A stretch of DNA of 24,322 bases from a virus. Made by a program: the position numbers and the translations under genes. The notes beneath the pieces are model-generated. The model was not told where the DNA came from and searched no databases. It saw only the letters and a program-made list of their open reading frames with translations. Location of the stretch: the IMG/VR virus record IMGVR_UViG_3300031787_007347, positions 1 through 24,322 of that record; one strand, given 5' to 3'. Positions 4,897-6,080 of this stretch are shown one piece after another; position 1 is the stretch's first letter, and each line of letters begins with the position of its first letter.

Positions 4897-5409
4897 CCAT
4901 AATTTTGATTCTGCAACTCGTCTTCTTAATAATCCTGCTTCAACATTAGTACCAGGATTACGATAGAGTTTGAGTGCCTCGGAAACTTTATTCCATTCCT
5001 TATTTTTAAGGACTCTTGTTATCGTATTAAAGTCAGAGCCTCCATAAAAATCAGCCCCAAGATTATAAGCAAAGCTAAGAATTGCGCCTTGTTGATTTGC
5101 ATTCATCTCTCCCCAATAAGGAATTTTTTGAAGTTTCGGAAGGAATCTATTTTTCAAATCAAATTCCAATAAAGTATCAGCATACTTTTGAGTGATTACT
5201 TTACCCATCTTAAAAGGAGATCCATCAAAATCTTTGGTGCTTCCCCACCCTATCGTGATTGGAAGTTTTCCAGTCAAAGGATCTGGATAAGCATTTAAAT
5301 GACATCCTTCAAACTCTTTGATTAAGTAAATGCCAACTAATGAAACTCCATTAACATTACCAATATTAGTTGGCTTCTCTACTTTTTTGCATCGAAGATT
5401 CTGCCCCAA
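4888..5409 (-). CDS. GH24 lysozyme domain, probably expressed by -1 frameshift from the upstream peptidase gene
   Basis: The frame encodes a T4/P22-type glycoside hydrolase 24 lysozyme that cuts the MurNAc-GlcNAc bond: LIKEFEGCHLNAYPDPLTG (catalytic Glu), ITIGWGST (Thr), QQGAILSFAYNLG, and the C-terminal GLLRRRVAESKLW. It ends 9 bases into the converging thermonuclease gene. No ATG or GTG precedes the domain. The only start codon in the open stretch is TTG 5409, without a good ribosome site, and a stop lies just upstream of it. The frame is exactly -1 relative to 5379-6080 across an A AAA AAG heptamer with a downstream stem. The fused product would be 397 residues. Confidence 0.85.
   Translation of the reverse strand: MGQNLRCKKVEKPTNIGNVNGVSLVGIYLIKEFEGCHLNAYPDPLTGKLPITIGWGSTKDFDGSPFKMGKVITQKYADTLLEFDLKNRFLPKLQKIPYWGEMNANQQGAILSFAYNLGADFYGGSDFNTITRVLKNKEWNKVSEALKLYRNPGTNVEAGLLRRRVAESKLWSS
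5332..5388 (-). promoter_or_regulatory. Candidate programmed -1 ribosomal frameshift signal
   Basis: Reading the minus strand: the slippery heptamer A AAA AAG (5382-5388, zero frame GCA AAA AAG), then the UAG stop (5379-5381) within a 7-base spacer. A perfect 10-bp inverted repeat follows, GCCAACTAAT (5365-5374) with ATTAGTTGGC (5332-5341), around a 23-base loop. The -1 frame continues as AAA AAA GTA GAG into the lysozyme. Confidence 0.75.
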
Positions 5410-6080
5410 CCAGTCTTATCTTTTGCTTTCTCTAACCAACGATATTGGAGATCCGACTTCTTATACACAGCACCTTTACCATTAGTAACTGCTCCAGTGT
5501 ATCCATCATTCAAAGAACCGTATGGATCATTGACAACATAATCATCGCCCCTCTTGCCAATGACTACAACCATGTGCCCACCAGTAGGAGCAGATAGAGT
5601 GCCACGATGAAGGATCCCGATAACAACGGGTCTCCCAGCGGCAAGCTCACGATCAAGATCAGCAAAAGAAAGATTATAATTAAAATTTGACTTAATGCCA
5701 TAATCTGCCAGAACTTTGGTCTGAACCGAGTGATCAGTTGAGTCACCAATGGCAAATACTTTTTGGACATAAGCATCATCACCCTTTGCTCCGTTTAGTG
5801 TGCCTGGTTTAAAATACTCCAGACACATAGCACAGGCAGAACTATTACAAGTACGATCAGCGTCTCTGTAATTATCTGTTTGAGGATAGTATGGAACATT
5901 TAAAACTCCGGTTGTGGGGGGAGTTATTGGAGTTCTATACACACGAACCCAATTAGCATCATCCTGCATTAAATCTAATGCCTTTACGAGTAAATCCTTT
6001 TCCAGTTGTTCAACCGCAGCAACGTGGTTAGGATTTTTTGGATCGTAATGTGAAAAGAAATTGTGAAGGTCAATCTGCAT
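5379..6080 (-). CDS. C39-like cysteine peptidase (N-terminal part of a probable two-domain endolysin)
   Basis: 233 residues from ATG 6080, with GGAGA 5 bases upstream. After a helical N-terminal region (MQIDLHNFFSHYDPKNPNHV), the papain-like C39_2-type core begins at about residue 73. It shows YYPQTDNYRDADRTCNSSAC (Gln and nucleophile Cys), then GGHMVVVIGKRGDDYVVNDP (catalytic His and the DPYG motif). Members of this family cut peptides, here plausibly wall cross-links. The gene stops at UAG right after a slippery heptamer, so most ribosomes would release a peptidase-only protein and some would continue into the GH24 domain. Confidence 0.8.
   Translation of the reverse strand: MQIDLHNFFSHYDPKNPNHVAAVEQLEKDLLVKALDLMQDDANWVRVYRTPITPPTTGVLNVPYYPQTDNYRDADRTCNSSACAMCLEYFKPGTLNGAKGDDAYVQKVFAIGDSTDHSVQTKVLADYGIKSNFNYNLSFADLDRELAAGRPVVIGILHRGTLSAPTGGHMVVVIGKRGDDYVVNDPYGSLNDGYTGAVTNGKGAVYKKSDLQYRWLEKAKDKTGWGRIFDAKK

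Follow-up and report, generated by a model that had tools for sequence, protein, structure and literature searches.

The question raised by this locus is how a phage lysozyme comes to be translated from a reading frame that has neither an ATG nor a GTG. In the window (the whole stretch of 24,322 nt analysed here, IMG/VR virus record IMGVR_UViG_3300031787_007347, whose closest named relatives are T4-like Kyanoviridae), a gene for a C39-like peptidase ends while the frame shifted by −1 stays open through a GH24 lysozyme. A first-pass annotation, made from the letters alone, had proposed a programmed −1 frameshift at this junction. Comparison with related loci makes it very probable that programmed −1 ribosomal frameshifting yields both a 233-aa peptidase and a 397-aa peptidase–lysozyme, a reading supported by the persistence of the slippery heptamer, by compensatory changes in the stem that follows it and by a trade-off between the heptamer and a separate lysozyme start. 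Many T4-like cyanophages appear to do likewise, and routine gene annotation overlooks their lysozyme or cuts it short.

Anatomy of the peptidase–lysozyme junction

The window contains the canonical elements of a −1 frameshift site: an in-register X_XXY_YYZ heptamer, a downstream structure and a conserved −1 frame that lacks a start. Their positions, given in Table 1, agree with the first-pass annotation both for the A_AAA_AAG heptamer directly 5′ of the peptidase stop, whose register is correct, and for the inverted repeat 7 nt beyond it. The repeat forms a perfect 10-bp stem with a 23-nt loop (RNAfold −11.9 kcal/mol, z −2.3). As had also been claimed, the −1 frame is open through a complete lysozyme; it is so from a point before the heptamer. 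From its last stop up to the lysozyme core it offers, again as claimed, neither ATG nor GTG, and a single TTG (5409) is the window's one candidate start. The predicted fusion has 231 + 166 = 397 aa, in keeping with the sizes first proposed for it and for the 233-residue peptidase. Contigs from two other samples (L092 and L093) encode both proteins in a form identical to that of the window.

Table 1. Features of the junction in the window
Feature	Position	Strand	Remarks
0-frame peptidase ORF	5379..6080	−	233 aa, TAG stop; end reads GAT GCA AAA AAG TAG
Slippery heptamer A_AAA_AAG, in register	5382..5388	−	abuts the 0-frame stop
0-frame stop TAG	5379..5381	−	heptamer-to-stop distance 0
Spacer TAGAGAA, 7 nt, heptamer to stem	5375..5381	−	
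Stem 5′ arm GCCAACTAAT, putative stimulatory	5365..5374	−	compensatory variation among relatives
Stem 3′ arm ATTAGTTGGC	5332..5341	−	encodes the LVG linker just ahead of the lysozyme core
−1 frame: linker and GH24 phage lysozyme	4888..5388	−	predicted to be reached by frameshift only

Several other features of the window were recorded. A staphylococcal-nuclease-like gene (PF00565; 4555–4896, + strand) is convergent with the lysozyme and overlaps its 3′ end by 9 bases. At one edge of the window lies an outer-membrane porin of cyanobacterial type (3–1157, − strand, 385 aa), which carries an SLH domain and runs off the stretch. An Rfam abiF RNA (RF03085; 1769–1805, − strand; 53.8 bits, gathering threshold 37) adjoins a phage tRNA-Arg gene; phage S-CREM1 has been reported to carry an abiF RNA too (PMC9964418). 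Such an RNA is the partner in AbiF-type defence or toxin systems, and a copy carried by a phage could possibly serve as a decoy antitoxin.

Heptamer and lysozyme start in related loci

Five protein scans of IMG/VR and INPHARED returned about 320 loci. After removal of identical junctions, the lysozyme lies in the −1 frame in 140, is fused in frame in 18 and lies in the +1 frame in 1. A slippery heptamer, mostly A6G, is present in register at 116 of the 140 distinct −1 junctions. The same junctions divide into 97 with the heptamer only, 19 with the heptamer and an own lysozyme start, 24 with a start only and none with neither (Fisher p 1e-15, a value that ignores relatedness). The last cell stays empty after clustering at 95, 90, 85 or 80% DNA identity. 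Relatedness was addressed on an IQ-TREE phylogeny of 125 peptidases, where the six configurations require 31 changes. Among 19 independent pairs that differ in whether the lysozyme is in the −1 frame without an own start, the heptamer agrees in 17 (median) and opposes in 0 (sign test p about 1.5e-5); once mixed states are excluded, 15 of 15 agree.

The heptamer is retained even though peptidase identity drops to about 70%. Of 44 peptidase loci that have no lysozyme downstream, none carries it in its A6G form at the gene end, and most of these loci terminate near a common WGR[IV]F motif. Loci with a clear lysozyme start usually lack both heptamer and stem; about one-sixth of the relatives have an ATGA or GTGA overlap, an own lysozyme start and no heptamer. 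Conversely, in 51 of 80 heptamer representatives the stretch from the last −1-frame stop to the lysozyme core is free of ATG, GTG and TTG, and a Shine-Dalgarno 4-mer precedes only 2 of the 45 candidate lysozyme starts in this set. The alignment of relatives that the first-pass annotation had called for thus found heptamer, spacer and paired stem kept while both frames stay open.

Codon usage and register of the heptamer

At 78 representative A6G loci, the two lysine codons occupy fixed columns as AAA (75/75) and AAG (75/78), compared with an AAA share of 0.61 for lysine elsewhere and a median top-codon share of 0.69 for conserved residues. The codon 5′ of these lysines always has A in its third position, while the residue may be Ala, Val, Thr, Glu or Ile. 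Since an in-frame A_AAA_AAG occurs at 0 of 17,650 other codon positions in these peptidase genes, its presence at the junction exceeds chance. The stop follows the heptamer without a gap in 69 of the 80 heptamer representatives, after 3 nt in 9 and after 6 nt in 2. In 52 of the 80, the shift has to fall between the −1-frame stop just upstream and the 0-frame stop, a span of 13 nt counting the stop codon, and this span contains the heptamer. An upstream Shine-Dalgarno stimulator was considered and gained no clear support: a Shine-Dalgarno-like 4-mer is found inconsistently among representatives (31/80), in a G-rich, protein-constrained stretch.

These data bear on the possibility that the lysozyme is made separately, by reinitiation after termination or by non-standard initiation at a TTG, ATT or ATA just past the peptidase stop, with the stem serving to couple the two genes. 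The relatives with an ATGA or GTGA overlap show a layout of this kind, and the window retains its TTG. Reinitiation explains neither why A_AAA_AAG is fixed in register and at its wobble bases nor why heptamer and stem are mostly lost where an ATGA is present; the many representatives without any usual start codon, and the rarity of Shine-Dalgarno sequences, also argue against it. We regard reinitiation as very improbable.

A covarying stem downstream of the heptamer

In the heptamer class, the best downstream stem has a median length of 10 bp (z 4.4 versus dinucleotide shuffles) and nearly always starts 3–8 nt past the heptamer, whereas loci without a heptamer give a stem z of about 0. The stems fall into sequence classes (CAACACCAC/GTGGTGTTG, CGCCAACTAA/TTAGTTGGCG, GACATCAC/GTGGTGTC and GTTCTACTCC/GGAGTAGAAC) whose arms pair within a locus. 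An alignment of all classes (A2) is misregistered between them because the classes differ by whole codons, and pairing in it was 84% as observed against 79% when shuffled and 28–54% when slid; covariation was therefore also computed in the register of each sequence, using permuted arms. By this measure, 10.0 of 12 positions are paired, compared with 8.33 ± 0.15 when the 5′ arms are permuted among loci. The wobble position of a conserved Gly codon illustrates the pattern, with six pair types (A-T 34, T-A 21, G-C 12, G-T 4, C-G 2 and T-G 1) accounting for 74 paired loci out of 78. One stem, that of L230, is weak (4 bp). Judged at the level of sequence, these comparisons show that the heptamer, its register, the stem and the absence of an alternative start are under joint selection.

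Slippage need not be ribosomal. RNA polymerase slipping on the A run, or on the U8 of isolate S-CAM7, would produce a mixed mRNA pool in which some molecules join the frames, as occurs in Thermus dnaX. The ingredients for this exist, in that a homopolymer run is present, S-CAM7 has 8 T and natural A7 variants show that run length can change. Six A residues are short for known polymerase slippage, and polymerase slippage predicts no fixed codon register, no adjacency to the stop and no covarying stem at 3–8 nt, all of which are observed. We consider it very improbable too.

Isolates and alternative layouts

The window's arrangement recurs in the isolate S-PM2 (75% and 65% amino acid identity to the window), where the peptidase ends GAT GCA AAA AAG TAA, the lysozyme is in the −1 frame and ATG, GTG and TTG are all absent after the last −1-frame stop. 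Three S-CAM7 isolates have instead a U_UUU_UUU heptamer followed, 5 nt on, by an unrelated 8-bp stem (z −4.5). The S-PM2 record annotates just a truncated 72-aa 'putative lysin', and S-CAM7 is a similar case. Frameshifting would explain why the lysozymes of these phages, the first of them sequenced long ago, were annotated as a truncated lysin or missed.

A mirror arrangement appears in ACG-2014f (45 records at 95–100%, of which six were read together with related contigs). Here the fusion lies in a single frame, yet A_AAA_AAG is retained with a 7–8 bp stem at 5–6 nt (z modest, −1.4), and a −1 slip is predicted to add K K V and then stop, giving the short form. The stop itself (TCT-GAN) was discarded as evidence on its own, since it is found also in fused relatives without a heptamer, and the case for ACG-2014f is carried by heptamer and stem. 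S-SRM01 and several contigs combine the heptamer with an ATGA start. Other lineages have only an in-frame fusion (the L149 to L260 group), a separate lysozyme or a peptidase alone, so not every lineage requires the two forms. S-CREM1 has a permuted fusion. Natural A7 variants (L229, L250, L273 and L286–L289), which may be real or errors, have an extra A that joins the frames and keep the stem.

The first-pass annotation had held that homologues with one continuous frame, or with a clear separate lysozyme start, would speak against a frameshift. Both kinds occur, the former in ACG-2014f, the L149 type and the rare A7 variants, among only some of the relatives; they do not contradict frameshifting because the heptamer is replaced there or, in ACG-2014f, kept in mirror form. 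It had also named a homopolymer read error as the main competing explanation, while doubting that such an error could account for the spaced stem. This explanation, in which a missing or extra A splits one continuous gene, could draw on the in-frame fusions of other lineages and on the rare in-frame A7 variants (L229, L250 and near-identical contigs), and is already refuted, on the testimony of the isolate genomes: S-PM2 shows the A6G state, as do about 100 distinct contigs of varied sample origin, the window has two identical counterparts among other contigs, the stem covaries and the three S-CAM7 isolates use a different slippery site.

Domains of the two predicted products

The 0-frame ORF comprises an N-terminal helical domain (residues ~1–50) followed by a C39-like cysteine peptidase (Pfam C39_2, Peptidase_C39_2, PF13529; E = 1.3e-13) whose active-site residues C78, H169 and D185 are invariant in their alignment columns. 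It matches phrog_3617 and phrog_10051; a phmmer search of the PDB with the peptidase gave no match. The lysozyme belongs to GH24 (PF00959, E = 4e-22), and its catalytic E/D/T residues align with those of PDB lysozymes, e.g. 9kbq. Since the catalytic residues are intact in both domains and related proteins carry the PHROG label 'endolysin', the natural reading is that the long form would be a two-activity wall hydrolase, and the short form would supply peptidase without muramidase. Alternatively, the enzyme may have a virion-associated role. A tail-assembly-chaperone reading was rejected because both domains are hydrolases. An AlphaFold model of homologues fused in frame, built on a 14-row alignment (A4), reached a mean pLDDT of 57 and a pTM of 0.45 and was set aside.

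Stand-alone lysozymes that themselves carry the N-terminal ~50-aa peptidase domain, as a copy or an analogue, were seen at L004:2274–2942, L005:2531–3202 and L312:3196 onwards, and the separate lysozyme of the DSL-LC03 and L312 type is built in this way, which suggests that this domain is needed on both enzymes. The window also encodes a second lysozyme-like protein (Phage_lysozyme2, PF18013; 3146–3790, − strand), which brings the muramidase-type genes of this phage to at least two, counting the GH24 enzyme.

Proposed mechanism

We propose that a ribosome on the peptidase message would meet A_AAA_AAG with the stop codon next and the stem–loop 3–8 nt ahead. Most ribosomes would probably terminate, releasing the 233-aa peptidase. 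A fraction would slip back one base as tRNA-Lys re-pairs from AAA AAG to AAA AAA, perhaps aided, beside the stem, by slow decoding of the stop codon that enters the A-site next; these ribosomes would move beyond stop codon and stem and translate the lysozyme, giving the 397-aa protein with peptidase and muramidase. The phage would thereby gain a fixed ratio of peptidase alone to two-activity hydrolase, with a common N-terminal domain. That two tRNA-Lys slip in tandem on A_AAA_AAG, helped by a stem, is established as the mechanism at such sites, and in E. coli their slipperiness is linked to a sole tRNA-Lys(UUU) with no CUU tRNA (PMC5009743). A pattern search of three host-type picocyanobacteria, Synechococcus WH7803 (the S-PM2 host), RCC307 and SynAce01, found one tRNA-Lys(UUU) in each and no CUU tRNA gene, although an atypical tRNA could escape such a search; a stricter version, which also specified bases of the anticodon stem, had no hits in six genomes, and the looser one succeeded. 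We infer that ribosomes do slip here, that the two proteins both attack peptidoglycan when the host is lysed and that their ratio matters.

Less securely, though more probably than not, cyanophages keep the ratio by recoding through several signals that would all yield the same two proteins, namely A6G with its stem, U7 with an unrelated stem, the mirror signal and the heptamer-plus-start arrangement. If so, the conserved trait would be the product ratio and not the gene layout, and recoding of this lysis enzyme would be widespread, with replicates supplied by nature. The dozens of lineages in which one recoding signal was acquired, lost, exchanged or inverted would form a natural experiment, and comparing them could show which peptidase:muramidase ratio the cyanobacterial wall requires. 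For annotation and enzyme use, the expressed unit would be the 397-aa fusion plus the 233-aa short form.

Comparison with known systems

The closest parallel is E. coli dnaX (tau/gamma), which likewise combines A_AAA_AAG, a downstream stem and a nearby stop to give short and long forms with a common N-terminus. The ACG-2014f lineage matches its polarity, with the long form in the 0 frame and the short form reached by a −1 slip, whereas in the window and most lineages the polarity is reversed. Unlike dnaX, the present loci have no consistent upstream Shine-Dalgarno stimulator, and the gene encodes a phage wall hydrolase in place of a polymerase subunit.

Phage −1 frameshifts are known for the lambda tail chaperones gpG/gpGT, T7/T3 gene 10 and head and tail proteins of Lactobacillus phage A2 (PMC5009743). 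As in these cases, a slip close to where the upstream ORF ends would add a C-terminal extension, apparently to fix a ratio; those products are assembly or structural proteins, whereas here a peptidase would be extended by a catalytic lysozyme domain. Catalytic wall hydrolases would thus join the jobs that phages appear to assign to −1 frameshifting.

The first-pass annotation knew of no endolysin made this way. A literature search likewise found no frameshift described for cyanophages or for peptidase–lysozymes. For lysins at large the statement must be qualified: 'lysins' appear in a list of genes with known frameshifts, with reference to a lactococcal phage lysin from two overlapping genes (Shearman 1994, as described in PMC10885494). 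That lysin also arises from overlapping ORFs and, going by the citing paper's description, belongs to another phage and apparently another architecture. Mycobacteriophage Ms6 LysA resembles our locus in giving two endolysin forms from one gene region and differs in that the second, embedded endolysin comes from an in-frame internal start; its authors merely speculate on frameshifting between gp1 and lysA (PMC3111421). Cyanophage C39–GH24 fusions of the phrog_3617 kind (ACG-2014f) have the same domain order and about 60–63% identity to the two halves, in a single frame, whereas in most lineages here the halves lie in different frames. With −1 recoding itself being standard, what appears new is a gene class without frameshift evidence of comparable depth until now, and an unusual diversity of signals.
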